From Protonemura montana (Eukaryota; Arthropoda; Insecta; Plecoptera; Nemouridae): a DNA stretch of 64,000 bases. A model generated the notes under the pieces. It saw only the letters and a list, made by a program, of their open reading frames with translations, had not been told where the DNA came from and ran no database searches. Location of the stretch: NCBI GenBank assembly GCA_947568835.1, contig OX387606.1, positions 2,542,001 through 2,606,000 on the forward strand, read 5' to 3'. Position numbers and translations under genes: made by a program. Position 1 is the first letter of the stretch; the number at the start of each line of letters is the position of its first letter. This document shows positions 48,901-62,880 of the stretch, in pieces.

Positions 48901-51900
48901 TATATTTTTAGTGCAAGGTATATATATATATATATAATTTTTTTTTTTTAAGTATATGTGTTCGGGAGTGATTTCAGCTTAGAAGAACTCTGCCAATGAT
49001 TGACTAAAAAAATGTTGATCGAATACGTTTCCACGTAGCTAGTTCACAGCAGTTCCGAATGGAGATCGTCACAATTCGCTCTAACTGAAACGCCGACCGA
49101 CCGGTTGGTCCACTATAACCGCTCGGTGCAGGCGTGTGCAACCCTTAAACCTTCAAACTGTAGCGAAACCTTTCAAAATGTCATAAAAATTGGTAAAAAT
49201 TACCAAAACCAAGTTTAGCCCAATGTTGGTGAAATTGAGCATTGTACGACCAGCCAAGTCGCCGAGCTGTGAGCGGTGACTTATGAGGTAACTCCAGGTC
49301 TGCGCACGTGCGCTGACCACCACACTGTACGTAGGTTCGACTTGACGCGTGCGCATCAAGTCCGTGCGCGGCCGGAGCGACCTGCTTGACACACGCGCAT
49401 GGAGGCTTCCAGTGCCGCTGTCCAGAAGGGCTGGCTGGTGAACTCTGCAGAGAACGTGAGTCACTATTACTCTAGCGCTACCTGTTGAACAATTGAGTAA
49501 CAAGACTAACGCTCGGGGAGTGTTTAGGGGACGAAAATTAGTACAGTAACTTCACTCGTCTTGCTTATCAACCTCTCGACAGCATGGATTTGTGGAGGAA
49601 TCCTGATGTGTCCATTTTACCGTCCTTTGGAAGGAAAGTTAAGCCGGTGGTCCCCTTGGTGCTCTTCGACAGGAGTAAGCTACGTGCCGGTACTTCTGCT
49701 AGGCCCCTAGAACCTCTTGGGCCTTCTTCTTCGTTCCCTTCTAGTCTGGGTTAGGTTCATCATCATCTTTATCCTCACTGATGCCATTAGACTAGTGCCA
49801 CAGGACCTGTTGTCAAAACAAAACAACACAAGCTAGCACGTGAGCCAAGCTTGCTGATTGATTTACAGCGGGCGACTGGGCGGGCGGATGGGCGGTGCCC
49901 GACTTCCCAGGGGGTGGAGCCTACTTGAAACTGCCACGCCTTGAGGGCGTTGGTCGCGCCTGCGTGCTCGAGGTTTGGTTTCTTACGCGCGCGCTCGACG
50001 GCGTCCTCCTGTACAACGGGCAGCTCGCTGTCGGTGGAAAGGGTGACTTCATCGCCGTCTTCCTCGCCGCCGGGAGGCTGCACTTCCGCTTCAACCTTGG
50101 CAGTGGGGTGGCCAGTCTGCAGTGAGTGCGAAGTTTCCTCTGCAACTGAAATCTTATCACCTTTCAATATCAATCTACGACTTCAATTGCAAGCTAATGC
50201 TTTTTTATTGTGTTTATTTCACATTTGTGCGCACACATTCCTAATATAAAGTTATATTATCCCCGTGTTCCATGTTTATGTATTTTTTTCCAGGGATTCG
50301 CAAACGCAATTAGAGTTGCATTGTAGGATGAGTGTAGCGATATTTAGGGCTGATAAAATGTGAAGCCAAAACATTGCATGAATCAAAACGAAACAGCCAA
50401 AATTCACAAATTTAAGAAGGACATTTGTGAATAAAAAGAGAAAGAAAGCGCACTTTGGCTCAAAAACTTCACGACTAGTTCTTTTTTATGTATTTCACAT
50501 CTGTTGAAAATTTGGTGCCAAAATATCCAACGCTTTATGCTGCAAACCTCGAAAACGTTTCAAAAATAAGTTTTGAAATTTTGTAATTTGAAATTTGACC
50601 GATTTTGCTGAAAACTGTAGGATTCTAGGTCTGAGATTGAGGAGGTGCCTTGCTTTATCACCCGCTAGGAGCACAGAAGAAGTGTCGCTGGGTCGCTGGC
50701 ACGTTGCTAGGGCGACACGAGTTGACAAGGAGGCCACGTTGCAGCTGGACCAGGGTCCGGTAATCACGGGGTCATCAGGAGCTCCTCTCAACGAACTCAA
50801 CCTCGAGCTGCCGCTCTTCGTGGGGGGCGTCCCGTGAGTCATTGCTAGGCAAACTGGCCCAATGCACGAATGTTCTTAACTCAAGCTTAACTCACGCAAG
50901 TTTGCCCCTCAAAATGGATCCTTGATGGCGAGGCAGTTCTTAAATTCTCATTTCTCAGTTTGATTGCCAAAAATATCATATTATCAACGCTCTAAACTAG
51001 ATTCATGTTTTTTTCGCAAATCAGATCACTCATAATAATCATGCGGTTTATTATGACCACTATCACCGTCTAAAAAATTGATGCCCAAACGGGAACTCGA
51101 ACCCCGATCTCCACCTGTCGCGGGTGTTGCTCTTACCCATTGAGCTACTTGGACACTGGCTTTTTGAGATGATTTTAGTGTATTTGATGAGAATGACGGA
51201 TCTCCAATGAGTAGAATCAAGAGGCTGTGAATACTCACAGTCACTCTGATTCTAGTGACGCTATATCACGTCACAACCTGTCAATCTCGAGTAACTCCAA
51301 TTTGACGTTGGATGCGTTTTTTTTTTCAATATTTCTTATTAATAATCCTGCGGTTTGCTTTGAACAAGTGTGACAGGTGGAGATCGAGGTTGAAGTTCTC
51401 GTTTGTTCACCAACTTTTAAGAGGAAGATCTGAGTGAACTGTATCCATCATATTACTGTGACCCCGGTTTGAGAGAGAGATTGCTTGCAGCTCCTTGCTG
51501 GAGACAAGTCGCGAGGCTGGTCTGGCAGCGACGGGTCTAGACGGCGTCCTGCAACGAGTCGTGGTCAACGCGCAGCCACTGCTTGGGCTACACCGCGCAG
51601 GCGTCTGGCCGGCTGCGCTGCGCAGATATGATGCGCATCCCGCCTGTCATCCGCCACCCTGTGCCAACCTTGGCGTGTGTCAGCCACGGCTTGATGTGTT
51701 TCAGTGCGCGTGTCCTCCACAGGTCAGTTACCAAGGCAACCAGCGGACTGATCTTTGTTTACTCGTGCTGGACCGTATTTTGTGTCATCAACTTTAGCGC
51801 ATTGGACACTACGCCAAATATCTGGGAGATTCAAAAAACACTTATTTCAAAATGAGTACTAAATGCAAACCTATTTATTCTGGCAGGTCAGAAACCGTCA

Positions 51901-54900
51901 AATTAGTACAATCTTTCTGAAGTTTCATCTGAAAAGCAGTTATTAAGGGGGTTCATATGGAACCTGAAAGAAGACATAAGAGCAAATATTATATACAAAT
52001 GAGACAATTATTATATTTCAGAACAAAAAAAATGCTGATGATATTTCGGCGTTGAAACACAAGCAGAGTTTCTTACTCATTTCAACACCATTAAAAATAG
52101 CTATTTTATTTGGAATTAGATATAAGTAAGATGTCTGAAAACTTGTTATTCTCTCAAGATTAGAATTGTGGATGTTATGAAAAAGTTGCGAATTACTCAA
52201 CCCTATTACTTCTTGAAAAACCGAAGGCGACTACAAAAAGTTTGTTTTTCCGAGTTTCCCACAAATTTCCCACAGAATAATTGTTTGAGTATTTTATTAG
52301 TGACTCAGCAACACGTGAGAATAATGCCATGCACACAGATTTGCTCTAATGTAAATTTTCAAGGTCCGTATGAACCACCTCAACACTTTATAATCTTGTG
52401 TTGTTGAAGAATTCAGCCGTCAAGAACTTACAACGAAAACAATCATCGATTTGTAAACGATTCTAAATCACAGACGGCGCATGGGCGTCCGCAGGATTTT
52501 TTCCAGGGGGGTGCAAATGCTTCCAAGGATATCGACAATAGGGCTTCAACTCTGGGGGGGGGGGGGGGGGGGGGGGGGGGGGAGGAAGAATCACACGTTT
52601 TAAATATGTTGAATGAAAACTAATCTGGGCGAAACACTCGCCTACCGCCACTGTGGATGTCAGCTTTGTAATCATATGCACTTGACGGAGACCATGGTTT
52701 TGTCACCAGCGTGTGTCTCAGTTCGTCGGCTAGGGATGAGGTTGAGTCCTGATTCACGAAGTGGCCAATATCCAAAGCAGCTTGAGGACCATAGATCACA
52801 TTCAGTTTCAGAGACTGGTATTGGATTTTCGGAATCCACCGTCGTCGATGTAGATGCACATGCACTTTCAATACTGCGATCGTGTTGCCATAACTGTCCG
52901 AAATTCAAAGTGCGTCATCGTTCGCCTTTCTTTCCACACTCGCACTAAAAAATGTGCGTTTATCCATCCTCTTACAATCAACGCACTTAACTAAAACGCC
53001 CGGGCTAACAACCACCCTACTTGAGTCGCTCCCGACACATAACTGACTTACGTTAAGTTGGGTTCGACCGGTAGGAAAACTAAAACTTCATTAAATGTAA
53101 AATTCTGTTCGCGGAATCGGAATCACGAGGGAGAATTTCGGGGAAGTAGGAACCAGCAAAGTTCAATTATTTTAGGATCCCAGTTTCATAGAATTACGCC
53201 GCAATTTTTTCGCTGGAAAGGTTGGATGGTCACTCACCTTTCCTCTCTAGAATCCAATACTAATTCAGCGTTTTTCGTTTAAATGGCACTATTTTGATCA
53301 ATTAAATATTAAAAGAGTTAAAAGTTTGCCAACGGTTTGTTTGTCAACCTTTGACAAAACTGTTAATCTAATTTATTTCTTTTATGACATTTACTTGGGA
53401 GTGCATATACAACTTTGGGCAACATTTCTGCTAACGGGCAGTTTAATACGTCCAACTTAATTTAAGAGACTCGTCCCCAAGGTTCACCTAATCACTAATC
53501 AGATACTTCTGTTTTCATCTTAACCTGCTTATTTAACTGGCCTGTAGCATTGTGAAAACGGTGAGAATAGAAATGGAGAAGTTCGGCTGAAATTTAGGTA
53601 TTTTCCAGGAAGGCTTTCAGGAAGATACAACTCGAACAGCAGGATTCCTTCACAAATCCATGCAGTCGAGTGTTTGATAAGCAAGGCTAATGAAGTTGCT
53701 GTACTAACTTTCATTCCTGCAACCTCTCTCCCGAACATAACTGATCATGTGTATGATGGTCACCCATCCAATACCTGACCCAGCGCAGTGTTGCTTAACA
53801 TCGGTGATCTCACGAGAACCGGTGTTTCAACACGCCAAACCGTTCGGTGTTACGATTCGAGGAGGGCTCATAAGCATTTGGACCCGCTGGGTGACTTGAT
53901 TTGGTCAAGAACACTCACATCAAACAAATGCTAACAAAGTTAAAATGAATTTAACGAAACATCCGCAATTAAAGTACGAGAATTTGCAGTTCTTTAGCAT
54001 CTGCATGGCTGAAAAACATTTGGTCTGTGATAGCAGCCGTGGACGCCATTGTTTTTATCACCTCGATCCACTTCAAAAACCGGTCAGCCAATAGGAACCG
54101 AGCTACAGTCGATCGAAAGTACGAGGCGGGCTCGATCGAGCACGTGTTGTGACGTCACTTGCACAGCGATGCAGTAGGTTTCAGGTGATACTCTTCTGTC
54201 GGCTGCTCGCCTGGTACAGAGAGACAAATTTTCGCCTCGTTCTCGACGATTATTTCAGTTGAAACTCGTCATGGTTGGATTAACCGTATGTATAGGCAGT
54301 CCCGTGGCACTCACGCGTACCACGAGTTGCTTCAAAGTTTTCACAGACAAACTAAATTTCTTGACAACGTCACTCGTTCCCAGCTACTTGACACAATTTT
54401 GTGAAATATAGCTTTTGAATTTTAGACATAGGCAACGCCTCAAAATAGGACCGATCGGGAGATAAAAATATGTGATATTTTGACTTAAGTTGCAAAACTT
54501 GTTGCAAACCTTTACAAGATACGATATTTTCTGCCTTGTAGTGCGATTTTACCAGCGCACGCAATGGCAGTGACAACGGACCGGAACGGACCGGAGCCTT
54601 TGCCATCAGTGAACCAAGGGTCCGCGTTCACAATATCAACCAAGCAATGTCATACACAAAACCGAGTGTGCTCACACAAAAATCTTATTTTGAGAGGTCA
54701 AGCAATTCTCAAAAAGATCTGCTACAGTCGCTTGTTTCATACCTGTCTTATTAGAACCGGTGTTTGGACCGAAATGACTTGTCAGAGACCACTTGCTTGG
54801 CGGCCCATTCACGCACTTCCTTATCTTGTACTGCTGTTTCTTCTTAGCGACCCAGAACTGGTTTCTTGCGTATAAATTTAAATGCAGATATTTTTCTTGT

Positions 54901-57900
54901 CTCGCCTAAAGACGCTCCCAATCCCTTGTGCGGGGATGTTTATTTTCATGACCCTTGAAATCCTTGCTCTCCCGACAAGTCCCTTGCACCCATATTTCAG
55001 AATTCAAATCCAAAAGCTGAAAACCATGTGAAATGATTTAAAGCATATATTTAAATTGCAAATGGGGTTGGATTTTTTTGCTCGTTATGCTCATCAAACA
55101 CATAACATTTCAATGTGTTAATGTCGAAGTCGATACGGGAAAAATAACTTCAATAACCAAAATTTAAAGGTTGCATGAGACATTTTGCATTACATGCATG
55201 CTCCCTTATGATATCAGTGATCAGAGGCGCCGGAGCAGCGATCATATTTCAGAGATCAGCCAGATCAGTGAACTCCAGTCTGCTAGAGCCTCTCTTGCAG
55301 TCCTGGAACGTCTAACACGGAGAGAGATATTGCTGCTTTTTTTACTGCCGAGTTAAATTTTAACCAGTGGACTTGTTTCACGGCGACCAGCACTGCAGCG
55401 AAATGAGTGATTCGGCTCTGGATGGGCGCGGAGTTTTGTGTCTACAAGATAGCCGTCAAAAACAAGGTGTGGGCTTACCGATTCTTTTGAAATAAGGAAC
55501 CTGGACCAACACTTTGTTCGCTGCCAGCAAAAATTAAAAATTGATTTCGTTGCGTGGAGTGAAATAAGCACCCTGTCACGGAATGTCCTGCACAGGGGCG
55601 ACTGCGAATGTTATTTCCAGGGGGGTGCAAGCGCACCCTCTTGCACCCCTCTCCGAACGCCCATGGACGGTACTTGTTTGTTGTTGATAGTTTGTTACCA
55701 TGGTGATAACGACTTTCCCTGCAAATTAACGGGAGACCCTTGAACTTTCTGTAAGGTGTCGAGCTAATTGTTGTGTTTCTATGACGACTGTTGCAGTTCA
55801 CCGGCGAGCTCTGTGAGACGAAGCTGCAAGTAGAGGCCGTCTCTGTGCCAATCAGGTTCAACGGCGATACCTACCACCAGTACGCGCTGCTAATCGATCA
55901 CAGGTACTTGATGTTTTCAACTTTAGTTCTGTTTCTTAAGCATTTTAGTAGTTAACAAGTTTTTACTTGATGTAAACCTCTAATAATAACAAAGGAAATA
56001 AACATAAAACTGGCAGATTTTTGCCAAAAACGAAGCATTAAGAGATTGTAAAGTCTTCTGAAAATTCCGCATTTGCACGACGCATGTCACCAAACGCTAC
56101 CAACCCCCTGTCCCTTTACTTGTAGTAGGGTGAACGAGTCGCTGACAAACGCCTCCGTGCCGCGGCGAGACGAGCCAGTGAACGCCGACGACGCCGAGGA
56201 GGTCGGCGTCGACGGTGATACCGGCGTCGGCGACATGTACGACGAAGACGACGTCGAATTCTTCCACGCCGAGTAAGTTGCAGCAATTGCAGTGGCGTGG
56301 TGCTGGGATCCTGGTACATGATGTGCCTCCTGACGCATGCATATTTGGCTCTTTGGGACTTCAAATAAAAATTTAAAAAACAGACACGTCCCAGTTTTAT
56401 CAAATTTTTGCAAGTTGAGAATGTAGCTTACAGAAACATATGCACGTGATTGGAAGTCGCCATAGCAATTGTAACAATCCCCACTTTAACTCAACGTTAA
56501 GGACATTGTTTGAAACGTGATACGATGACCAAGAATAAGGCAACGTGATCCAACATGGCGTTGTCCAGTGTAACCCAGGTGTGGAGTAGCCTCCAGATGT
56601 CGCTGACCAAGTTGTTTTGTCCCAGGGACGGCGGTCGTGGGTCGACGTCAGAGTGGGCGAGCTACGAGATCAACTTCCGTTCCGCCGAGGCCGACGGTCT
56701 GCTGATCTGGACGGACTCCGGGCACGCTGCACTCGCCCTCGTCGACGGCTTCCTGGAGTTCAGTTTCCGGCTCGGCAACCATGAAGCACCGCTCGTCGTA
56801 CGCTCCAAGGTGCGTCTTCCTCTCTACAATTTCCAGTCTTAAGAACCAGCAAGAAAAACGTCCGACCACACAGCCTCCTTGCTAACACCACGGCCTGGTC
56901 CATGGGCTTGATATTGTTGCAAACTGCATGGTTGCAGTTGGTGCTTAGGTGAGCTGTCGCATGCTGGTAGGAATTTGCACGGTAAGCGTCAGCAATATCC
57001 AAATGGTCCAGCTGTATTAATGTGGTCAGGAAGTGCATCAGAGAGAAACCAGCTCCCGGGTTGAACGGTTCTTATTGTGTACTACAGTTTTGGTAAGCGT
57101 ATTATTATATTACTTTCTGTCCTAGTAGGACTTAAATTATATCCCGGCAAGTAACGACCGTTCACATTGCCAAGCGAGATCTTTCGGCCTAGCATAAACA
57201 ACAGTCTAAATTCTGGTCGTAACAAATGGTGGAGGCGCCGGGCAATGATCCCGGTACCTAATGATCCCTTATATTCTAGGTGGTTGTGAGCGACGGGGCG
57301 TGGCACTCGGCGACCGCGCAGCTGCGCAGGCGCGGGGTGTCGGTGTCGGTGGACGGTGAGCAGGTCGTGCGCGCGCAGGTCTCGCCAGGTGCCACCGCGC
57401 CACCTCCTGGGCGCGCGCTCTTCCTTGGTATGTTAGTCCCCTTGGTGCTCTTTGACAGGAGTAGACTTTGCGTTGGAATCGGGTTTTCATAATTGATCCA
57501 GGTTATCTAGGTTTATCCAGGTTCATCCCGATTATTTGAGATCAGCTGGCTGGATCCTTTGGTCTTTTCAGGTAATTTCAGATCATCTGACTGGATCCTA
57601 TGCTCTATCCAGGTTATTTGAGATCAGCTGTCTGGATCCTATGCTATATCCAGGTTATTTGAGATCAGCTGGCTGGATCCTATGCTCTATCCATGTTATT
57701 TGAGATCAGCTGGCTGGATCCTATGCTCTATCCATGTTATTATTTGAGATCGGCTGGCTGGATCCTATGCTCTATTCAGGTTATTTGAGATCAGCTGGCT
57801 GGATCCTTTGGTCTTTTTAGGTAATTTGAGATCATCTGACTGGATCCTATGCTCTATCCAGGTTATTTGAGATCAGCTGGCTGGATCCTATGCTCTATCC

Positions 57901-58353
57901 AGGTTATTTGAGATCAGCTGGCTGGATCTTATGCTGTACCTATTCAGGTTATTTGAGATCAGCTGGCTGGATCCCATGCTCTATTCAGGTTATTTGGGTT
58001 TAAATGGTTTATTCTCATATTTTCATAGGCTAGATACGCCATATTTGCTTTTAAACGTTCACTGACGCCTCAAAGCAAATGCCAGTGCATCGATAAAACA
58101 CCGCATGAATTGCTCAATCAGTTCAACAGCGCCACAACACTGCCCTGGATTGCTCTTCACGCACTAAGACCTGTGTTAACTGCTTGCAGGTGGCGCCCCA
58201 ACACTGCCCTCTGGACTACCCTCTGCATACTACCTCGGCTTTAGGGGCTGCGTGGAAGCGCTGCGCGTGGACCGGCGCACGCTCGACCTGCACAAGCGCA
58301 TCGAGTCAGACAAGATGGCCGCCGTGCTCTTCTGTGACGACAACTACGTGTGA
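12789..58353 (+). CDS. AGRN: Agrin, complete 29-exon gene model
   Basis: Agrin is a secreted basement-membrane proteoglycan. In vertebrates it organises synapses through LRP4/MuSK and binds laminin and dystroglycan. I joined 29 exons. All intron phases agree and the total is 5304 nt, giving 1767 residues (human agrin is about 2050). Diagnostic stretches are [14 protein letters not shown] in laminin-EGF 2 and [13 protein letters not shown] before laminin-EGF 1, both closely matching vertebrate agrin as I recall it. The gene has FS1-7, a lustrin-like module, LE1-2, a final FS, a linker, an EB-like module, then EGF-LamG units ending after LamG3 with an exact stop. The vertebrate NtA and SEA domains are not found. 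I see no convincing Ser-Gly clusters for heparan sulfate. Identity is sure from exon 2 on. Exon 1 and the 49335 exon boundary are the least certain parts. Confidence 0.93.
13565..13860 (+). mobile_element. tRNA-like element with inverted-repeat flanks
   Basis: A tRNA-like block (GTCCAAGTAGCTCAATGGG, box A; GGGGTTCAAGTC, box B) sits between CATCTCAAAAAGCC on the left and TTTTTGAGACGGTTATA on the right, which are inverted copies. Related copies lie at 22845-23235 and 51045-51320 (both reversed). Position 33 of the anticodon loop is not T, so this is not a working tRNA gene. Confidence 0.75.
14084..14289 (+). repeat. 46-bp tandem repeat carrying duplicated 3' splice sites
   Basis: The unit TTGCTTCCTTTGCTTACAG plus GGTCACTGACCCCT repeats at 46 bp. 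The last copy supplies the acceptor of agrin exon 2 (AG at 14288-14289). Identical acceptors end at 14151, 14197 and 14243, with a decayed one near 14105. Because 46 is not a multiple of three, use of an upstream copy would shift the frame and reach a TGA within the repeat. Confidence 0.9.
14290..14529 (+). CDS. AGRN: Agrin exon 2: follistatin/Kazal module 1
   Basis: One complete FS module (about residues 45-124): EGF-like half [14 protein letters not shown], then the Kazal half with [14 protein letters not shown] and the closing GPCG. Such modules are protease-inhibitor-like folds in matrix proteins. Flanked by phase 1 introns on both sides, the normal arrangement for shuffled FS exons. The donor is GTGAGT. 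The acceptor lies in the 46-bp repeat. Confidence 0.92.
14599..14695 (-). mobile_element. 5S-SINE tail fragment
   Basis: Only the tail end remains (TTTAACGGCGCACTG to the GATGATGAGG stretch), in reverse orientation in agrin intron 2. The following 14696-15255 is AT-rich with an ATAAATAT-rich patch and a fragment of the tRNA-like element's tail (about 14857-14912). Confidence 0.75.
15256..15835 (-). mobile_element. 5S-SINE copy with about 3 heads
   Basis: Reverse-orientation copy running from the tail TTTAACGACGCACTG through the core GGTGCCGGCACGTAG to repeated 5S-like heads at 91-bp spacing. It ends at AAACCGTTCGG, the 5' end of the family. Confidence 0.85.
15836..16758. other. Intron 2 stretch, unassigned
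   Basis: No exon, RNA gene or known repeat recognised. Around 16080-16330 the sequence is GC-richer than its surroundings but shows no conserved domain in any frame. Confidence 0.45.
16759..17770 (+). repeat. 76-bp minisatellite, about 13 copies
   Basis: The unit contains ATGGCGTCCACGCTTGGAGT and CTATCAAGGCTTCATGG, at 76-bp period. The period is not divisible by three, so frames rotate between copies. Two copies share the variant CATATGAAGTCGG, evidence of block duplication. Confidence 0.95.
17771..18463. other. Intron 2 AT-rich stretch
   Basis: Very AT-rich, with no feature recognised. Confidence 0.5.
18464..19365 (+). repeat. 64-bp minisatellite, about 14 copies
   Basis: Unit TTACAATGCAAGG followed by GGGTTGCTAACTCTAACC and TGATTCTACCTTGTTGAT, exactly 64 bp. 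Copies differ mainly at GCTGCTT/GCTCCTT/GCTCATT, showing higher-order ordering. Confidence 0.95.
19866..20645 (-). pseudogene. LINE reverse-transcriptase relic
   Basis: Minus-strand pieces read like the C-terminal part of a non-LTR retrotransposon reverse transcriptase (Jockey/CR1-like): [31 protein letters not shown], then [17 protein letters not shown] and RFVKWISYK, then [17 protein letters not shown]. The pieces lie in different frames around 20310-20320 and near 20590, so the copy is frameshifted and dead. Only the 3' end of the element is present, as expected of 5'-truncated LINE insertions. Confidence 0.85.
20771..20940 (+). repeat. 21-bp tandem repeat, about 8 copies
   Basis: The unit GAAATGCACGACTCGGTGC repeats at 21 bp. 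Open frames on both strands encode only a seven-residue repeat. No splice sites suggest use as an exon. Confidence 0.9.
20941..21665. other. Intron 2 stretch with poly-C runs
   Basis: Contains short direct repeats of AAGTCAAGGTCAT near 21312-21350 and two poly-C runs (about 21451 and 21598). No gene recognised. Confidence 0.5.
21666..22095 (+). mobile_element. 5S-SINE, near full-length copy
   Basis: Best single-head copy. The head runs from GTTTGGCGTGTTGGAAACAC to CACCGAAGTTAAGCAACACTG and GGATGGGTGACC, as in 5S rRNA. A middle segment ends TGGATTTGTGGAGGAATCC. The core CAGGAGTAGGCTACGTGCCG resembles the conserved core shared by several metazoan SINE superfamilies (from memory). The tail ends GTCGTTAAACACCACAAAAC with AATC repeats. 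Confidence 0.88.
22096..22844. other. Intron 2 stretch
   Basis: Includes a fragment of the MITE-like family at about 22555-22605 (TGTCTACTTGATG, TAGCACTAGTTTTGACA). Otherwise unassigned. Confidence 0.5.
22845..23335 (-). mobile_element. tRNA-like element, reverse copy
   Basis: Reverse orientation. The block 22890-22975 gives a tRNA-like fold with box A TAGCTCAATTGG. Flanked by the same inverted arms as the 13565 copy. Further out, GTGACGCTATATCACGTCAC and CTCCAATTTGACGTTGGAT are shared with the copies at 13590-13660 and 51250-51315. The tail fragment GCGCATTGCAAGCGTTTGC lies at about 23288. Confidence 0.75.
23537..23752 (+). CDS. AGRN: Agrin exon 3: FS module 2
   Basis: Complete follistatin/Kazal module (about residues 125-196). 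The EGF-like half is [14 protein letters not shown]; the Kazal motif is [14 protein letters not shown]; it closes GQCG. Acceptor CCTCTAG, donor GTAAGT, phase 1 at both ends. Strongly GC-rich compared with the flanking intron. Confidence 0.93.
23860..24537 (+). repeat. 6-bp AGCACA/AGCACT array
   Basis: Hexanucleotide repeat of more than 110 units mixing AGCACA and AGCACT. It is open as Ser-Thr repeats on one strand and Leu-Val on the other. It lies wholly inside agrin intron 3 with no splice sites around it, so not judged coding. Confidence 0.95.
24548..24655 (+). repeat. 5-bp GGTCA array
   Basis: About a dozen GGTCA units, decaying to GGTTA. AGGTCA, the nuclear-receptor half-site, is therefore present every 5 bp. 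The array ends about 30 bp before the exon 4 acceptor. Confidence 0.9.
24687..24902 (+). CDS. AGRN: Agrin exon 4: FS module 3
   Basis: Complete FS module (about residues 197-268): [14 protein letters not shown], then [14 protein letters not shown] and closing GACG. Phase 1 on both sides; acceptor CATGCTAG, donor GTGAGG. Same length (216 nt) as exon 3, consistent with module duplication. Confidence 0.93.
24988..25330 (+). mobile_element. MITE-like inverted repeat
   Basis: Two arms of more than 110 bp are reverse complements with some mismatch. The left contains TATTTGAACTGGGTTTTGAATG and CGTTTCGTAACTTG; the right contains CAAGTTACGAAACG and CATTCAAAACCCAG. They enclose about 60 bp. Half-copies of the right arm lie at about 25680-25865 and 31325-31510. 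No coding capacity. Confidence 0.82.
25331..25540 (+). mobile_element. Dispersed element, partial copy
   Basis: Starts CTCATAATTATGAC and CAACGCAAAGCGATAGC. Shares about 150 bp with 32330-32480 and 46213-46325, where larger copies occur. Confidence 0.75.
25680..25865 (+). mobile_element. MITE-like right-arm copy
   Basis: Matches the right arm of the 24988-25330 inverted repeat (AAAGTAACAGGTACAAGTT, then GTAGACATGAGTCTAAAAAC). The left arm is missing. Confidence 0.75.
25991..26203 (+). CDS. AGRN: Agrin exon 5: FS module 4
   Basis: Complete FS module (about residues 269-339): [28 protein letters not shown], the classic [11 protein letters not shown] and closing GLCS. Phase 1 at both ends, acceptor GTCTGCGCAG, donor GTGAGT. 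Confidence 0.94.
26204..27740. other. Intron 5 stretch, no feature
   Basis: AT-rich. I see no exon, RNA gene or repeat family, apart from a short GTTTAACGACGCAC trace of the SINE tail near 27267. Confidence 0.5.
27741..28550 (+). mobile_element. 5S-SINE copy with 5 tandem heads
   Basis: Starts CGAACGGTTTGGCGTGTTGG. It carries five 5S-like heads at 91-bp spacing (GTTAAGCAAC near 27795, 27886, 27977, 28068, 28159), then one middle, core and tail ending AACACTACAAA. A single body with several heads shows that the head alone was amplified. Confidence 0.9.
28551..29145. other. Intron 5 stretch
   Basis: Contains a short decamer repeat GAGCCGAGTA/GTCGAGCCGA near 28808-28845. No gene recognised. 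Confidence 0.5.
29180..29320 (-). mobile_element. tRNA-like element, partial reverse copy
   Basis: Tail ATTTAAATCGCAAACGCTTGC, then the arm ACCGTCTCAAAAATTGATGCCC and a broken tRNA-like block ending near CCACCTATCGC. A related GTTACCGGCTCGTTTGCTC segment follows at 29467. Confidence 0.7.
29780..29832 (+). repeat. 14-bp tandem repeat, about 4 copies
   Basis: GCGGCAACAATGCA repeated head to tail, ending about 30 bp before the exon 6 acceptor. Confidence 0.9.
29862..29956 (+). CDS. AGRN: Agrin exon 6: FS module 5, first half
   Basis: Encodes the EGF-like half of an FS module: [15 protein letters not shown], then CVCPAPCES (about residues 340-371). Starts in phase 1 and ends in phase 0 at the donor GTGAGC. 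It must join exon 7 to make [13 protein letters not shown], which restores a canonical module. Confidence 0.9.
30195..30590 (+). mobile_element. 5S-SINE copy, single head
   Basis: Head GTTAAGTAACACTGCGCTG with GGATGGGTGACC, middle segment, core TAGGCTACGTGCCGGCACC and tail GTCGTTAAACATCACAAA. It lies in intron 6, between the two halves of FS module 5. Confidence 0.88.
30843..30957 (+). CDS. AGRN: Agrin exon 7: FS module 5, Kazal half
   Basis: Phase 0 start: [17 protein letters not shown] to YKGDCG (about residues 372-409), the Kazal half completing exon 6. Donor GTGAGT in phase 1. A decayed exon is excluded: the frame is intact and the motif perfect. Confidence 0.92.
31325..31510 (+). mobile_element. 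MITE-like right-arm copy
   Basis: Matches the 25680-25865 half-copy (GTGCAAGTTACGAAACGTTGG, AGTAGACATGAGTCTAAAAAC). Lies 60 bp before exon 8. Confidence 0.75.
31574..31798 (+). CDS. AGRN: Agrin exon 8: FS module 6
   Basis: FS module (about residues 410-484): [21 protein letters not shown], then [14 protein letters not shown] and YGECRD. The Kazal motif is the least typical in the gene (ASNMATY for GSDGVTY). Acceptor ACGCGCAG; donor GTGAGT; phase 1 on both sides. Confidence 0.92.
32118..32575 (+). mobile_element. Dispersed ~460-bp element
   Basis: Shares with 45990-46470, in order: TTATTTTGTGCGTACGC, CATTCCGGGAAAA, TTCAAGAAACACA, CATAATTATGAC, AGCATAGCGAGAGTATAG and AACACACGATCTAGAACAGC. No coding capacity. 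Boundaries are approximate; class unknown. Confidence 0.82.
32650..32789 (+). CDS. AGRN: Agrin exon 9: Ala/Ser/Pro linker and start of FS module 7
   Basis: Codes for a low-complexity linker ([15 protein letters not shown]) and the first residues of an FS module, [11 protein letters not shown] (about residues 485-531). Ends in phase 0 at donor GTAAGC. The module continues in exon 10 as ASCEV, giving CDFEASCEV, a normal follistatin sequence. Confidence 0.85.
32955..33150 (+). repeat. 48-bp tandem repeat, about 4 copies
   Basis: Unit AGATATATTACTGGTCTATT plus AGGACGTTGATAATCAGTAC. In-frame period of 16 codons gives open frames on both strands; not coding. Confidence 0.92.
33220..33546 (-). mobile_element. 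5S-SINE, reverse, with internal 36-bp amplification
   Basis: Core ACTCGGTGCCGGCACG, then AATCCATGCTGTCGAGAGG. The segment GTTGATAAGCAAGGCGAGTG is amplified five times at 36 bp. The copy ends at GTACTAACT, 15 bp before the exon 10 splice acceptor, and contributes the perfect branch-point-like sequence TACTAAC at 33538-33544. Confidence 0.85.
33560..33755 (+). CDS. AGRN: Agrin exon 10: FS module 7, remainder
   Basis: Phase 0 start after [28 protein letters not shown], then [16 protein letters not shown] and LDLCRG (about residues 532-596). Ends in phase 1 at GTGAGC. No ATG opens this frame, so it is easily missed. The 196-nt length is exactly what the flanking phases need. Confidence 0.9.
34571..34720 (+). 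CDS. AGRN: Agrin exon 11: lustrin-like Cys-rich module
   Basis: About residues 597-646. The pattern [28 protein letters not shown] and FAKCC fits the lustrin/WR1-type cysteine-rich repeat (C, G-PL, CG, CP-GY-C, CC). Phase 1 on both sides, so it is an independent shuffled exon. It occupies the position of an FS module in vertebrate agrin. Function unknown; family assignment is from pattern memory. Confidence 0.8.
35228..36045 (+). mobile_element. Non-autonomous hAT transposon, complete with TSD
   Basis: 818 bp. The left end is CAGTGTTGAGTAGGAACTT and the right end, read in reverse, is CAGTCTTGATTAAGTTCC; both are hAT-type terminal inverted repeats. The 8-bp sequence CTCTTTCA flanks it on both sides (35220-35227 and 36046-36053), the target duplication length of hAT elements. 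Interior has AACGCGTTC-rich subterminal repeats and no transposase frame. Confidence 0.92.
36226..36513 (+). CDS. AGRN: Agrin exon 12: Cys-Cys module and laminin-EGF 1
   Basis: About residues 647-742. A Gly-rich start ([12 protein letters not shown]) leads to [18 protein letters not shown], a module found before the laminin-EGF pair in vertebrate agrin. Then laminin-EGF 1 follows: [34 protein letters not shown]. Phase 1 at both ends; the last codon is completed by exon 13 (GCIPCAC). Confidence 0.95.
37580..37665 (-). repeat. tRNA-like pseudogene block
   Basis: On the minus strand, GGATAGCTCAGTTGGTAGAGC is a typical tRNA D-arm and box A. CCGGGTACGTAACCCGG is a T-arm-like stem but lacks the TTCRA loop. 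The acceptor stem does not pair fully. Likely a tRNA-derived SINE remnant; a similar block lies at 39455-39535. Confidence 0.6.
37757..38857 (+). repeat. 26-bp hairpin minisatellite, about 42 copies
   Basis: The unit is ACAGAATGGTCTGTCACTAT plus CAGACC. Each unit contains the inverted repeat GGTCTG-TCACTAT-CAGACC, a 6-bp stem with 7-nt loop. Only C/T at one loop position and one T/C elsewhere vary. All three + frames stay open through the array because of the repeat; not coding. Confidence 0.95.
39228..39377 (+). CDS. AGRN: Agrin exon 13: laminin-EGF 2
   Basis: About residues 743-792: [49 protein letters not shown] is nearly identical to vertebrate agrin as recalled and is the best single identifier of the gene. 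Phase 1 on both sides; acceptor GTTGCAG, donor GTGAGA. Confidence 0.97.
39455..39535 (-). repeat. tRNA-like pseudogene block
   Basis: Minus strand reads GTATAGCTCAGTTAGTAGAGC (box A-like) and GGATCCGGGTTTTTATCCC (degenerate box B region). Pairing is imperfect. Probably tRNA-derived repeat. The rest of intron 13 is AT-rich with (TTTATT) stretches near 39595-39640. Confidence 0.55.
39780..40022 (+). CDS. AGRN: Agrin exon 14: last FS module
   Basis: About residues 793-873; corresponds by position (after laminin-EGF 2) to vertebrate FS9. [21 protein letters not shown], then [15 protein letters not shown] and GACKG. Phase 1 on both sides; acceptor TTTTGTCTGCAG, donor GTGAGT. The donor abuts the 72-bp array that fills the next intron. 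Confidence 0.95.
40030..43122 (+). repeat. 72-bp minisatellite filling agrin intron 14, about 43 copies
   Basis: Unit CTAGCACCTAGTACATTGG then CTGCTTGGAAAAACATGGCCC and AATAACACAGAGACATTT, 68-72 bp. It begins about 8 bp after the exon 14 donor and ends about 22 bp before the exon 15 acceptor, so the 3122-bp intron is almost nothing else. Copies of 41455-41760 repeat the variant order of 40150-40560, showing segmental duplication. Confidence 0.95.
43145..43324 (+). CDS. AGRN: Agrin exon 15: Ser/Thr/Pro-rich linker
   Basis: Cysteine-free exon (about residues 874-933) with [17 protein letters not shown] and [11 protein letters not shown]. Vertebrate agrin has a Ser/Thr-rich stretch here before the SEA domain. 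Phase 1 on both sides; acceptor CCTGCTTGCAG, donor GTAATG. Assigned by position, phase and frame; homology is not visible. Confidence 0.8.
43641..43817 (+). CDS. AGRN: Agrin exon 16: EB-like Cys-rich module
   Basis: About residues 934-992. After an Ala/Thr-rich lead ([15 protein letters not shown]) comes [17 protein letters not shown] and [10 protein letters not shown], ending QHCVG. This is the spacing of EB modules known from arthropod and nematode matrix proteins. It stands where vertebrate agrin has its SEA domain. Phase 1 on both sides. Confidence 0.85.
43892..44128 (+). repeat. 60-bp tandem repeat, about 4 copies
   Basis: Unit CCACGTGTTGCCGGCCTCG with GCCATCGGGTGGCACC, 60 bp. Open frames on both strands follow from the period. 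A related single unit is found near 13930-13970 and 29460-29490 beside the tRNA-like element. Confidence 0.9.
44135..44300. mobile_element. tRNA-like element reduced to a hairpin
   Basis: Left arm TGAACAATATAACCGTCTC to GATGCCCAAACG and right arm CGTTTGGGCATC to GGTTTTAGTGTTCATAATAA are near-perfect inverted copies of about 45 bp, separated by about 10 nt. The tRNA-like middle is gone. Confidence 0.8.
44484..44639 (+). CDS. AGRN: Agrin exon 17: EGF-like domain 1
   Basis: About residues 993-1044. Acidic lead [12 protein letters not shown], then [32 protein letters not shown]: six EGF cysteines. It precedes LamG1 as in all agrins. Phase 1 on both sides; acceptor GATTGTTGCAG, donor GTGAGG. Confidence 0.94.
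44845..45730 (+). mobile_element. 5S-SINE copy with about 8 tandem heads
   Basis: Heads at 91-bp spacing (GTTAAGCAAC near 44907, 44998, 45089 and on), then a single body: CAGCATGGATTTGTGGAGG, core GGAGTAGGCTACTTGCCGG, breaking off near TGTATGCTAGG. It ends 40 bp before exon 18. This is the largest head array of the family in the window. Confidence 0.9.
45771..45948 (+). CDS. AGRN: Agrin exon 18: LamG1, part 1
   Basis: About residues 1045-1103: [17 protein letters not shown], then [20 protein letters not shown] and [10 protein letters not shown], the first strands of a laminin G domain. Begins in phase 1, ends in phase 2 at GTGAGT. Completes with exons 19 and 20. Confidence 0.95.
45990..46470 (+). 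mobile_element. Dispersed ~460-bp element, second copy
   Basis: Collinear with 32118-32575, with a small insertion (TATTATATGATATATTATAT) near 46325 and a poly-C run. Located in intron 18. Confidence 0.82.
46667..46894 (+). CDS. AGRN: Agrin exon 19: LamG1, part 2
   Basis: About residues 1104-1179: [17 protein letters not shown] to [17 protein letters not shown]. Phase 2 on both sides (acceptor CCGCCCAG, donor GTAGGC). Matches the usual LamG strand order; no y-type basic insert is visible before the YVGY strand. Confidence 0.94.
47050..48300 (-). mobile_element. Element with inverted 47-bp arrays
   Basis: About 19 copies of the 47-bp satellite lie reversed at 47050-47945 (GGTTCTAGGTAGAGACAGAACG). 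Then comes the shared body 47955-48160, then about three forward copies to 48295. The same body and satellite stand at 8811-9800. The last forward copy ends about 45 bp before exon 20. Confidence 0.85.
48348..48594 (+). CDS. AGRN: Agrin exon 20: LamG1 end and EGF-like domain 2
   Basis: About residues 1180-1262. [15 protein letters not shown] and [10 protein letters not shown] close LamG1. [12 protein letters not shown] and [15 protein letters not shown] form an EGF domain. Starts in phase 2, ends in phase 0 (donor GTAAGC). Confidence 0.94.
48595..49334. other. Intron 20
   Basis: AT-rich, with a (TA)n run near 48919-48938. Nothing else recognised. Confidence 0.6.
49335..49455 (+). CDS. AGRN: Agrin exon 21: EGF-like domain 3
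   Basis: About residues 1263-1302: [14 protein letters not shown] and [18 protein letters not shown], six EGF cysteines. Phase 0 start fits exon 20 and phase 1 end fits exon 22 (121 nt). The acceptor ACTGTACGTAG is pyrimidine-poor, so the exact start is the least certain of the internal exons. The frame itself is sure. Confidence 0.85.
49520..49830 (+). mobile_element. 5S-SINE copy, head missing
   Basis: Middle segment CAGCATGGATTTGTGGAGG, core CTTCGACAGGAGTAAGC, tail GACCTGTTGTCAAAACA. Diverged from the consensus; in intron 21. Confidence 0.8.
49869..50121 (+). CDS. AGRN: Agrin exon 22: LamG2, part 1
   Basis: About residues 1303-1386: [62 protein letters not shown]. Phase 1 to phase 2; acceptor GATTTACAG, donor GTGAGT. 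Confidence 0.95.
50669..50833 (+). CDS. AGRN: Agrin exon 23: LamG2, part 2
   Basis: About residues 1387-1441: [17 protein letters not shown], then [16 protein letters not shown]. Acceptor CCCGCTAG in phase 2 joins SLQ to STEEV as LamG homologs require. An in-frame acceptor at 50623 would add about 15 unlikely residues. Phase 2 donor. Confidence 0.9.
51045..51320 (-). mobile_element. tRNA-like element, reverse copy
   Basis: Best tRNA-like block of the family (51088-51158, minus): 7-bp acceptor stem with wobbles, box A TAGCTCAATGGG, box B GGTTCGAGTTC. The anticodon loop CGCGACA lacks T33. Inverted arms ACCGTCTAAAAAATTGATGCC and GGCTTTTTGAGATGATTTTAG flank it. Confidence 0.75.
51491..51722 (+). 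CDS. AGRN: Agrin exon 24: LamG2 end and start of EGF-like domain 4
   Basis: About residues 1442-1519: [18 protein letters not shown] closes LamG2 (note the usual last cysteines are at [11 protein letters not shown]). [18 protein letters not shown] begins an EGF domain finished in exon 25 (PPQ joined to FTGELCE). Phase 2 start, phase 0 end. Confidence 0.92.
52483..55668. mobile_element. Possible transposon ends bracketing 3.2 kb of intron 24
   Basis: CATGGGCGTCCGCAGG with CCAGGGGGGTGCAA at 52483-52516 faces TTGCACCCCTCTCCG and AACGCCCATG near 55643-55668 in inverted order. Another CCAGGGGGGTGCAAG lies at 55617. No clear target duplication. Contents: a 29-G run, a reverse 5S-SINE (53595-53860) and unassigned sequence. 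It may be one element or remnants of several. Confidence 0.4.
53595..53860 (-). mobile_element. 5S-SINE copy, reverse, single head
   Basis: From AGGATTCCTTCACAAATCC through the 5S-like head (GGTGATCTCACGAGAACCGG) to AAACCGTTCGG. The core is mostly lost. Confidence 0.85.
55797..55903 (+). CDS. AGRN: Agrin exon 25: EGF-like domain 4 end and LamG3 start
   Basis: About residues 1520-1554: FTGELCETK completes the EGF domain; [18 protein letters not shown] begins LamG3. Phase 0 start, phase 2 end (AG of an Arg codon). Ends at the residue that precedes the z insert in vertebrate agrin. Confidence 0.92.
56129..56272 (+). CDS. AGRN: Agrin exon 26: acidic insert in LamG3, z-site-like cassette
   Basis: 144 nt coding 48 residues (about 1555-1602): [16 protein letters not shown] then a run of Asp/Glu ([23 protein letters not shown]). 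It contains sequons NES and NAS. Phase 2 on both sides, so skipping keeps the frame and joins LIDHR directly to DGGRG. The acceptor is the tandem TAGTAG (AG at 56125 or 56128), which would add or drop one codon. Not LamG-like itself. Confidence 0.85.
56626..56809 (+). CDS. AGRN: Agrin exon 27: LamG3, part 2
   Basis: About residues 1603-1664: [45 protein letters not shown]. Phase 2 start (acceptor TTTGTCCCAG), phase 0 end. Corresponds to the strands after the vertebrate z site. Confidence 0.95.
57280..57427 (+). CDS. AGRN: Agrin exon 28: LamG3, part 3
   Basis: About residues 1665-1713: [39 protein letters not shown]. Phase 0 start, phase 1 end at GTATGT. The intron continues at once into a fragment of 5S-SINE core (57433-57490). 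Confidence 0.94.
57432..57490 (+). mobile_element. 5S-SINE core fragment at a splice donor
   Basis: GTCCCCTTGGTGCTCTTTGAC and AGGAGTAGAC match the SINE core; it begins 4 bp after the donor GT of exon 28. Confidence 0.75.
57500..57995 (-). repeat. 41-bp minisatellite, about 12 copies (array C)
   Basis: Same family and orientation as 10665-11305 (GATCAGCTGGCTGGATCC, TATGCTCTATCCAGG), more diverged. The variant block with TTTGGTCTTTTCAGG appears twice, about 245 bp apart, so a block was duplicated. Confidence 0.93.
58190..58353 (+). CDS. AGRN: Agrin exon 29: LamG3 end and stop
   Basis: About residues 1714-1767: [28 protein letters not shown] and the C-terminus VLFCDDNYV before TGA at 58351-58353. 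The two cysteines form the LamG disulfide. Phase 1 start after CTGCTTGCAG. The protein ends right after LamG3, as in other agrins. Confidence 0.96.
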
Positions 58354-59067: not shown

Positions 59068-59805
59068 TTTTAGTGTTTAACGACGCACTTTTTCATATCT
59101 GGCCTTTTGGTACTGGTCTGATGGCGCGGTGAATGAGCGGATGATAATGTGGATGATCACGAATCTAACCTAGCCTAGAAGAGAAAACTTTTCTCCAGGA
59201 TAGAAAATAGGGTGATCCGGTTGACGATTGAACTGTCAGAACTTGAAAGTCAAAGAGCACCAAGGGGACCACCGGGTTAGCGTCCTTCCAAAGGACAGTA
59301 CAACACGAACATCATAATTCCTTCACAAATCCATGCTGTCGAGAGGTTGATAAGCAAGGCGAGTGAAGTTGCTATACTAACTTTCATCCCTCCAACCTCT
59401 CTCCCGAACAGAACTGGTCATGTGTATGATGGTCACCCATCCAATAACTGACCCAGCGCAGTGTTGCTTAACTTGCATCTCTCCAACCTCTCTCCCGAAC
59501 AGAACTGGCCATGTGTATGATGGTCACCCATCCAATAACTGACCCAGCGCAGTGTTGCTTAACTTTCACCCCTCCAACCTCTCTCCCGAACAGAACTGGT
59601 CATGTGTATGATGGTCACTCATCCAATACCTGACCCAGCACAGTGTTGCTTAACTTTCATCCCTCCAACCTCTCTCCCGAACAGAACTGGTCATGTGTAT
59701 GATGGTCACCCATCCAATACCTGACCTAGCGCAGCGTTGCTTAACTTGGGTGATATAACCGATGTTTCCTTCCTACGCATCAAAACGCTCGGTTCCAGCA
59801 GTGTT
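59068..59805 (-). mobile_element. 5S-SINE copy with 4 heads, reverse
   Basis: From the tail TTTAACGACGCACTTTTTC through a partly lost core to four 5S-like heads at 91 bp (CTTAACTT near 59467, 59558, 59649, 59740), closing near TCAAAACGCTCGG. It lies between agrin and the polycystin-like gene. Confidence 0.85.
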
Positions 59806-61442
59806 ATCGAACCCTTCACTACTTTGAAAATTACTTTTGATAATTAACAAATATTACAATTTAAGTGGCAAATTACCGCACCTATTTGCTGCCTTGTCGC
59901 TTTTAGAAATCTTAATGTTATCTTTTAATGAAGCGGCGTAGTAAAGTCAGGAATGACAAGAACGCACTTTCGTAATAGTATGTTTTGTTTAACTTTTTGT
60001 CGTTTAAGTTACATGCCAGATCTTGGCATCGAAATGTTTGTGTTCAAATTTTTGTTTATTGGTAAGTTTTACAATTAAACGTGTTGTTTATTAATTTGCC
60101 AGTTTTATAATTACCTTTTTGGTAACTTTTCAATGAGTAAACTCATGGGTTATGAGTTTCTTATGAGTTTCTTATGAGTAAATCAAGAGTTACTTTGAGT
60201 TACTTTGCAATTCGTTACAACGAGTAACCAGCGCCTTGAAAATTGGTCCAACTTGTGATTTGTGAGGGAATACGTTTGTGTAACAAAGCAGGACTTTATG
60301 ATTATCAATATTATCTATATATAATTATAATTTATAATATATATAATATATACTTATTTATTTATTAATCAGAATAATAAATATATATTTATACATATAA
60401 TTTTCTCTAAATATGTATATAATCTTATATCTTATATCTTATATCTACATCTTATAATGTAGAATATAATTAAACATCTTAATTTACTTAACCTGGGAGA
60501 AAATAAATATTTATTCATTCTTCACTGTCATAAAGGCGGTGATGAAGTTCTTTCCACCTTCTTGCAAATAAGCTCGTATTGGCAAATGTTCTAAGAAAGA
60601 AAGTTTTTATAAATCAACACTTTTTCTGTGGTTCTTATTCGGAAAAATCTGCAACATCAACCATTGTTGTCGGTAAAATAGTTAATCAATAGCTTTTTTT
60701 TTGGCGAAGGCGCCTTGACTCTGACTTGGTGCAGGTTAAAAACATTTTCTAATTAGATGTTCCCAAGCAAACAACGAACTAACGTTCTGTACCTACGTTT
60801 CTACCACTGAATGACCAGTCGTTACACTACGAAAAGCCGATTTCTATATAAATTTATATGAAACAGATTTATACAATTATGTTGTTCCTTTCCATTTTTT
60901 CATTCACATCCGCTCCGTTATCCATTTCCTAAAACTTTTCAAATTCCTCATCCCTTTTTCGTCGAGACCATTAATTCAATTCCAATCTTCAAAACCTTTT
61001 TCTACAATCCCAATGCCCTTCTTCAATTTAAATCAATTTAAAAAATGTAATAAATTTAAATTCATGCCCAACTTTACCATCTCTAATCTCTTGTCACCTT
61101 CCACGCATTCCACTCCCAAAAGGATTTAAACCACAGATTTTTAAACGTGAACCTTGTTATTTTTTTAATTCGTCACATTTTACTTTCTAAATTTCTTTAT
61201 TCGTACTTGTGTATATTCTGTCTGTTATTTCAATTTCTTCCTCGATTTGTCTCTCATCTGTTTTCTCTTTGCGTTCATCATCGTCTTTGTTTTCTGTTTT
61301 CTCAACATTATTTCTTTCTTCCGTTCCATTTCCTTCCTTAATAACCTCATTTCGACGTTCTTTTTTACCATTGTCTTCATCATCTTTCCTTGTTATTAAA
61401 ATTCATTGTTCAACTAATCTAACGCTTTCTGAAACCAAGCAG
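59806..61442. other. Intergenic or intronic AT-rich DNA
   Basis: Low-complexity TA-rich DNA at about 60300-60480, then pyrimidine-rich sequence. No exon recognised. It may be an intron of the polycystin-like gene, whose 5' end is not found here. Confidence 0.5.
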
Positions 61443-61747
61443 CAAGCATGACAATCTACGCATCACCTCCAGCAGCTGCTTTCGAAATAACTGATATAAA
61501 TTGCATTGGGATGTACATCCCAATTAGCACTGATCGGTACGGTGTGACTTCCCAAGTCGATCTCACCTGGATGGACATGGATGCACTCTGTCGATCAAAT
61601 TTCCCGGGGTACGCGTTAATCACCGACGTCTACCGTTTCACGCCCAGGGAATTGGGTCTGTGTCCCGAAGGTTCTATCGTAGCGATCGCCAAAGAGATTC
61701 AACCCTACGGCGTCAAATGGTACAAGGCTGACAATGACGACGATCAG
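61443..61747 (+). CDS. Polycystin-1-like receptor, exon a (5' boundary uncertain)
   Basis: Encodes CIGMYIPISTDRYGV, TWMDMDALCRSNFPGYALI and ELGLCPEGSIVA. The cysteine and aromatic spacing recalls a C-type-lectin-like or Link fold, but I cannot assign it firmly. An ATG at 61448 could be a start, but an acceptor-like CAG ends at 61442, so an internal exon is as likely. The end, DDDQ with GTTTGG donor, is phase 0. Confidence 0.6.
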
Positions 61748-62244
61748 GTTTGGCATTTTTTTCTTATTTGCTAACTTAATAACTTATCATTACATATTGA
61801 ATTATGAACACGTCTTTAATGCAACAGCGCAAGGTGGAGATAGGTGTTCAAATCCGCGATTTGGTACATTATTTAAAGAGATAAATAGTGATAATAATAA
61901 TAAAGTGTCTTACTCATTGCAAGCATGAGACAATGAACATTTTAGTATACATTTTATAACAGCAAGAAATGCCTGTTTATGGCAGAAAGTCCGTAATTTT
62001 ACAAAACCTCGTTTATCATTTTTATTTCCTTAATCTTCGCCAAAAATAAAATCAAACTTCTAAACCTTTACCCTAAAAATAAGAGTCTCGCATTGAAAAC
62101 AGGCGTACTCTCTCAAGAAATACCGATTCGTTTTCCTTAGGTTAGCTTTTTTGAAATTTATATTGCAACTCAAAACATCGATTTCTTTCTTTAATCTGCT
62201 AAGATGGTTAGTAACGCTTGTTTTTTTTCTGTCTGTCACACCAG

Positions 62245-62782
62245 ACAACAGACACGGGATTGTCCAAGCAATCGAGTCCAAATGCCAGCGTCAGCGCAAT
62301 TCACTGGCCGAATCCCGAGCCATTTACCGTAGACAATGAGCCCATGTTCCGCTGTGGCGTCTGCCAACTGATGCGAAGGTTGAACGTCGTCACTCAGGGC
62401 GTTTACCCACCACACAACAACTCAGAGTACGCCTACGACCTTGAGCTAATTAGCGACGACAGCGTCGACGACGTCGGTCTCGTGGCTAACGGCAGCGACC
62501 TCACGAACCGGTTGCTAAAAGACATGGCAGAGGTTTTCAACATTTCGGTCAAAGCATTGCGTTGGCATGGAGCGAAGTTGAACGATGACCGCAAGGCCGT
62601 GGTGCATGTCTACTACGACCGAGAGGATGGCAAAATGGATTGGGACCAGTACCTCCGCCGAGACGATCAGTACTTTACTGCGACGGCGGTCTCCAGCTTC
62701 AAAGTGACGACCATCAAGCTCAGTACGGAATGTATGCAAGGAAAAATCTTAAAGAACACTATACGGGAGCCTATTCTGACAG
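62245..62782 (+). CDS. Polycystin-1-like receptor, exon b
   Basis: Phase 0 start after GTCACACCAG: SAIHWPNPEPFTVDNEP, FRCGVCQLMRRLN, then SEYAYDLELISDDSVDD and VFNISVKALRWHG. The first part seems to finish the Cys-containing domain of exon a. Ends in phase 1 at GTATGC (ILTG), which fits exon c. Ectodomain, with N-glycosylation sequons such as NAS, NGS and NIS. Confidence 0.75.
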
Positions 62783-62880
62783 GTATGCTTAGCCAAAAAT
62801 TATTAATATATAAAAGTTAGTTAACAATATAAATCTAAGTAAAAGGTCAGCTAATTTTCTTCCTTTTTTTACTAACGCAG

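Follow-up and report, generated by a model that had tools for sequence, protein, structure and literature searches.

Agrin gene and LG3 exons

Pfam and PDB matches together with exon modelling place an agrin gene on the plus strand of the window, i.e. the whole stretch of 64,000 nucleotides of Protonemura montana DNA that was analysed. Pfam searches with ten peptides, nine of them from this gene, led to matches with Kazal_2 (2), EGF_laminin (2), EGF (1) and Laminin_G (4, two of these entries being forms of LG3), and the gene shows by Pfam the arrangement of agrin, with follistatin/Kazal, laminin EGF and EGF domains and three C-terminal LG domains. Nineteen exons were modelled, with exon numbers as in the initial annotation of this DNA. 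At least seven further exon-like stretches lie outside this model, near 32.6, 36.2, 39.2, 39.8, 43.6 and 44.5 kb and one inferred only from a phase break; as the LG1c/LG2a junction is out of phase (0 versus 1), an exon is probably missing in between. One Kazal exon has a second copy of its acceptor and first bases 46 bases further upstream (14234-14300, with starts at 14244 and 14290), and the duplicated acceptor is a decoy whose reading meets a stop.

When the spliced LG3 (exons 25 and 27-29) was searched against PDB sequences, the best match was agrin 8s9p with an E value of 1.9e-32. We take 8s9p to be the human protein, given its length of 2068 and residue numbers that agree with those used for human O00468 in PMC6966886. 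Comparison with the individual domains of 8s9p gave 60.9 bits for LG3, 39.9 bits for LG1 and 17.6 bits for LG2, and the identity of the window LG3 to human agrin is 39% for LG3, 34% for LG1 and 29% for LG2. With an identity of no more than 39% to human LG3, the gene is very unlikely to come from a vertebrate. By these scores and identities, the last LG domain corresponds to LG3 of vertebrate agrin, and with the Pfam matches the identification of both gene and domain in the initial annotation is borne out.

All LG3 exons lie on the plus strand. Exon 25 (55797-55903, phase 0-2) completes the last EGF domain and opens LG3 as far as the z point, has the splice sites ttgcag/TTC and CACAG/gtactt and fits in phase to the preceding exon, which ends in CPPQ. 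Exon 26, the z-site insert (56129-56272, 144 nt, phase 2-2), consists of 47 full codons and two split ones between an acceptor tagtag/GG and a donor CGA/gtaagt. The LG3 core past the z point follows in exon 27 (56626-56809, phase 2-0), assigned from its splice sites and the Pfam Laminin_G match of the spliced LG3, and in exon 28 (57280-57427, phase 0-1), and exon 29 (58190-58353) holds the end of LG3 and the stop codon (58351-58353). The reading frame is kept to this stop both with exon 26 included and with exon 26 skipped. The intron between exons 28 and 29 contains a 41-bp tandem repeat of 11.3 copies (57525-57996).

The acceptor of exon 26 is a tandem TAGTAG of the NAGNAG type (56123-56128, plus strand), the first AG of which scores 7.5 and the second 3.2. 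Use of the first AG would move the exon start to 56126 and give 147 nt with one extra Ser, the exon then beginning with Ser-Arg-Val-Asn (DHSRVNES versus DHRVNES). Depending on the AG used, exon 26 may thus have 144 or 147 nt; with this addition, splice sites and frame agree with the position, phase and open frame first given for it.

Position of the insert at the vertebrate z site

Phmmer alignment of the exon-skipped LG3 to the insert-free structure 1q56, taken here as chick agrin LG3, ran without a gap between the first strand and the z point, with R of LLIDHR opposite S of YHNAVTKS and, following directly, DGG opposite EKA. The z8 form 1pz8 has its eight insert residues, HLSNEIPA, between that S and E, and a MAFFT alignment with the insert-free and z8 forms put the exon 26 insert at the z point. 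The insert therefore follows the residue aligned with S and precedes the one aligned with E in TKS/EKAL. The skipped-form loop of the window LG3 is four residues longer than that of 1q56, and in the phmmer alignment to 1pz8 this longer loop covers the z8 insert, leaving a two-residue gap just before DHR. From these alignments, the insertion point of exon 26 is at the z site with an accuracy of about three residues, as the initial annotation had it. Loop identity had been set beforehand as a refuting test by alignment, and the insert was found in the vertebrate z loop.

The z-site intron of the gene is of phase 2, and in LG1 and LG2 of the same gene a single exon spans the equivalent place without an intron. 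A supplementary legend in PMC12445529 lists a z-site intron without Z exons for C. elegans and sea urchin, and so an old intron was there for use. The coincidence of the site should nevertheless not be overrated: we estimate that an exon gained in LG3 would hit the z intron with a chance of about 1/3, because LG3 without exon 26 has three introns.

Composition of the insert and state of LG3

Of the 47 residues of the insert 15 are Asp or Glu, whereas the 18 other modelled exons have no 47-residue window with more than 10, which agrees with the very acidic character ascribed to it before. An acidic stretch at 56181-56270 (plus strand) has a Tyr in acidic context, and this Tyr, in DMYDEDD, is in our view a candidate tyrosine sulfation site. 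Two N-glycosylation sequons, NES and NAS, lie at 56133-56156 (plus strand); all 18 other modelled exons together, with 1127 residues, contain one, and two or more are reached in 1.3% of composition shuffles of exon 26.

An Asn-Glu pair near the start of the insert had been read as a loose echo of the vertebrate NEI motif. This reading has to be given up, as the pair belongs to the first sequon, Asn-Glu-Ser, and appears in 34% of the composition shuffles, and as no N-x-I/V/F motif was found in exon 26. These motifs are of interest as N-x-I/V is the LRP4 contact in vertebrates (described in PMC6966886) and N-x-F the contact proposed for Ciona (described in PMC12445529). A hidden microexon with N-x-I/V/F beside exon 26 can be dropped as a candidate, since open phase-2 microexons of 12-63 nt with this motif numbered zero in introns 25 and 26, a weak negative result given the expected 0.4 and 0.8.

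In a figure legend of PMC6966886, Asp1940, Leu1957, Gln2007 and Asp2009 of human agrin are named beside the N-x-I residues, and from this legend we assumed that they form the Ca2+ site. The equivalent of Asp1940 in the window LG3 is Gly in two alignments and a gap in the MAFFT alignment, and Leu, Ala and Pro are found at the positions of Leu1957, Gln2007 and Asp2009. Both aspartates of a Ca2+-binding LG3 are hence absent; the LG1 and LG2 domains of the window retain Asp at the first of these positions and Asp or Asn at the second. A shifted Ca2+ site is possible, as the shortened loop, WTDSG, has an Asp a few residues ahead of the position where the ligand is lost. In addition, a constitutive N-x-I/V before the z site, said in PMC12445529 to be common to all agrins, was not found in exon 25, which has LLI where 1q56 has NAV. 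The window LG3 thus appears to lack two features that are tied to LRP4 signalling, plus one to which no role is assigned.

Coding signal and splicing of exon 26

Judged by its codon usage, exon 26 is a real protein-coding exon. Its GC3 is 0.85, close to the 0.77-0.84 of exons 25 and 27-29, between introns of 35% and 44% GC, and its codon log-odds score amounts to 40.3 bits. The resulting 0.86 bits per codon lie within the 0.29-0.99 of the other exons, as expected if exon 26 were constitutive and LG3 in this lineage simply had a longer z loop. Such a loop seems tolerant of expansion, the skipped form already exceeding that of 1q56, and we see an even chance for this reading. The weak donor of exon 25 and the shortness of the introns would rather suit a cassette, without being decisive.

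The alternative, to which we give a real but less than even prospect, is that exon 26 is alternatively spliced and tissue-regulated, so that the gene would have a z-site switch of its own with the vertebrate logic and a different cargo. Consistent with this are the flanking introns of 225 and 353 nt, the shortest of the 18 modelled gaps, the exon 25 donor, which is the lowest of 18 with 1.7 bits (leave-one-out matrix), and the tandem acceptor. Skipping of exon 26, which is in frame, would leave the Pfam Laminin_G match unchanged (74.0 and 74.7 bits), this match lying wholly past the insert, and slightly raises the match to 1q56 from 60.6 to 64.9 bits. GCATG, the Rbfox core, also occurs once in intron 25, where 0.1 would be expected and 8% of shuffles reach this count, and once in intron 26 against 0.7, neither being significant. 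On the other side, exon 26 is not notably weak, as six of the 18 donors score lower than its own (7.1 bits) and its better acceptor (7.5) stands above 13 of 18 others. YCAY is not enriched in the flanking introns, and no TGCATG was found. YCAY even remains below expectation (1 versus 2.5 in intron 25, 2 versus 6.1 in intron 26) and no YCAY pair within 10 nt occurs in intron 26, and Nova regulation was rejected on the missing YCAY enrichment. PTB-like TCTT/CTCT occurs 3 times versus 1.7 expected and 2 times versus 1.0, which is not significant.

Exon 26 had initially been called skippable without frameshift on account of its symmetric phase. This holds insofar as both forms are in frame, but the symmetry is no hint at skipping, as an exon that sits in a phase-2 intron and keeps the frame has to be symmetric. 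Symmetric phases are also found in 7 of the 17 other modelled internal exons, two of which, LG1b and LG2b, are core LG exons of phase 2-2. From the sequence, cassette and constitutive use of exon 26 would be near even.

That exon 26 is unreal, a chance open stretch flanked by chance splice sites, we consider very improbable. Pairs of splice sites with scores at least equal to those of exon 26, 60-300 nt apart in multiples of three, were collected as pseudo-exons (with one misplaced exon in the training set). Introns on the plus strand gave 33 such pairs, 6 of them open in phase 2 and none scoring as coding, and the minus strand of the whole window 39 pairs, 9 of them open in phase 2 and again none scoring as coding. 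The plus strand of the 43.6-kb gene span (14600-58189) has 4718 open windows of 47 codons outside the modelled exons. Of these, 26 reach 40.3 bits, and they occur only at exon-like places, clustering at 32649-32652, 43634-43661 and 44483-44525. The last of these is a Pfam EGF exon and the other two resemble Cys-rich agrin exons by eye; as such unmodelled exon-like stretches were counted as intron background, the coding test is slightly conservative. On the minus strand, 4 of 5239 windows reach the codon score of exon 26, all of them antisense to exon 28.

No other significant copy of exon 26 was found within the window, which speaks against a chance exon and also against a piece of a repeat or transposon. 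A structured RNA across exon 26 was likewise dismissed, as Rfam gave nothing for 55700-56900 at E values of up to 0.1, and a search for relatives in viral contigs led to six pattern matches, none of which was confirmed.

Origin and possible role of the z-site exon

The agrin z insert is a textbook case in which one small exon makes a matrix protein act as a synapse organiser, and its origin has recently been placed in chordates (as presented in PMC12445529). According to the same source, Z exons are neuron-specific in vertebrates, present in Ciona and a candidate in amphioxus, and were not found in nematode and sea urchin. Like the vertebrate Z8, Z11 and Z19, exon 26 is inserted in frame at the same point of LG3, in vertebrates a flexible loop beside the Ca2+ site (described in PMC6966886). 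It differs from them in size, with 48 residues versus 8-19, in being acidic and sequon-bearing without N-x-I/V, and in belonging to an LG3 that lacks the Ca2+-ligand aspartates.

Ciona robusta offers a non-vertebrate example of exons in the z-site intron, Z6 and Z5, which are described in PMC12445529 as Nova-dependent microexons that encode 6 and 5 residues, carry N-x-F and were detected by RT-PCR, with YCAY-rich Nova sites in the intron after them. Exon 26, in contrast, is one large predicted exon with neither N-x-F nor an enrichment of YCAY. C. elegans AGR-1 is also an invertebrate agrin, for which, unlike here, PCR with neighbouring exons and intron inspection are reported to show the absence of a z insert (PMC1939731). 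A large z-site exon in a non-chordate agrin was not found in the literature, as far as titles and the openings of abstracts, by which this was mostly judged, reveal.

The likeness that bears on function comes from neurexin, where SS#2 and SS#4 are in-frame inserts in the LNS (LG) fold; LNS2 and LNS6 are bound by dystroglycan only when these inserts are absent, for SS#4 a steric block being suggested by the authors (PMC4183798). Neurexin is another gene, and it differs further in its retained calcium-coordinating residues and in the location of SS#2 in the loop β8-β9 (PMC4183798). Vertebrate agrin without the z insert is itself described as a strong dystroglycan binder (PMC1939731).

Taken together, we favour with a probability of roughly 0.58 that exon 26 arose by an independent gain, in an old intron interrupting agrin LG3 at its z point, and would not be homologous in sequence to the chordate Z exons. 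Its inclusion would extend the rim of LG3 by a long loop that is acidic, prone to glycosylation and probably disordered, and the insert would most likely alter the contacts of LG3 by bulk and charge, as the neurexin inserts keep dystroglycan off. Docking to LRP4 through an Asn-x-Ile motif is not the proposed mode. Arthropods have LRP4 (PMC8006230). A steric gate or a new charge contact would fit the loop better, and as LG3 is without the Ca2+ ligands, the partner is probably not a classical Ca2+-dependent glycan. We infer disorder, glycosylation, gating and independent gain alike, the last of these from the non-resemblance of exon 26 to Z exons, from the published work and from the gene lying outside vertebrates. 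Some distant homology may still be hidden, as similarity can vanish altogether in a disordered loop that evolves fast.

That exon 26 shares its origin with the chordate Z exon and has since diverged, by which the z exon would be older than chordates, is hardly credible despite the shared insertion point, as exon 26 is six times the length of Z8 and has no N-x-I/V/F, its NE pair is expected from composition, C. elegans and sea urchin yielded no Z exons (as far as stated in PMC12445529 and PMC1939731), and the z motif is stated in PMC2874008 to be missing in invertebrate agrins, with Apis and Tribolium among those aligned there (Figure S8). The statement on the missing motif leaves room for an unrelated exon, and the same source had declared the motif missing in Ciona as well (PMC2874008), where it was later found in a changed form (according to PMC12445529). 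Concerning the two origins suggested in the initial annotation, 'invented twice at one spot' is the one that fits the independent gain favoured here; 'older than vertebrates' had already been published for chordates (PMC12445529).

It is a more doubtful extension of the independent gain that a non-vertebrate lineage evolved its own regulated z-site switch, independent of chordates, with a large cassette toggling an acidic, glycosylated and possibly tyrosine-sulfated loop on an LG3 that lost its Ca2+ site. If this were true, the same loop would have been recruited twice, with different chemistry, as an interface controlled by splicing. A non-homologous exon in the same agrin loop would suggest this loop as a favoured place for adding function, and a z insert would then not have to imply LRP4 signalling.

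Further elements in the window

Downstream of agrin, a gene at 61433-64000 (plus strand) runs off the window. It ends here in a Cys-rich stretch and a transmembrane segment, which to us recalls polycystin-like proteins; Pfam gave no match for its last 105 residues. Three 5S rRNA-like elements score above the Rfam gathering score (21666-21784 and 27746-27866 on the plus strand, 53729-53848 on the minus strand), and by eye a 91-bp tandem array at 59378-59747 seems to repeat part of the 5S-like sequence, so that elements and array look like a 5S-derived SINE family. Three tRNA-like elements (13749-13821 on the plus strand, 37584-37656 and 51082-51154 on the minus strand), two of them tRNA-Ser(cga), are possibly tRNA-derived SINEs.
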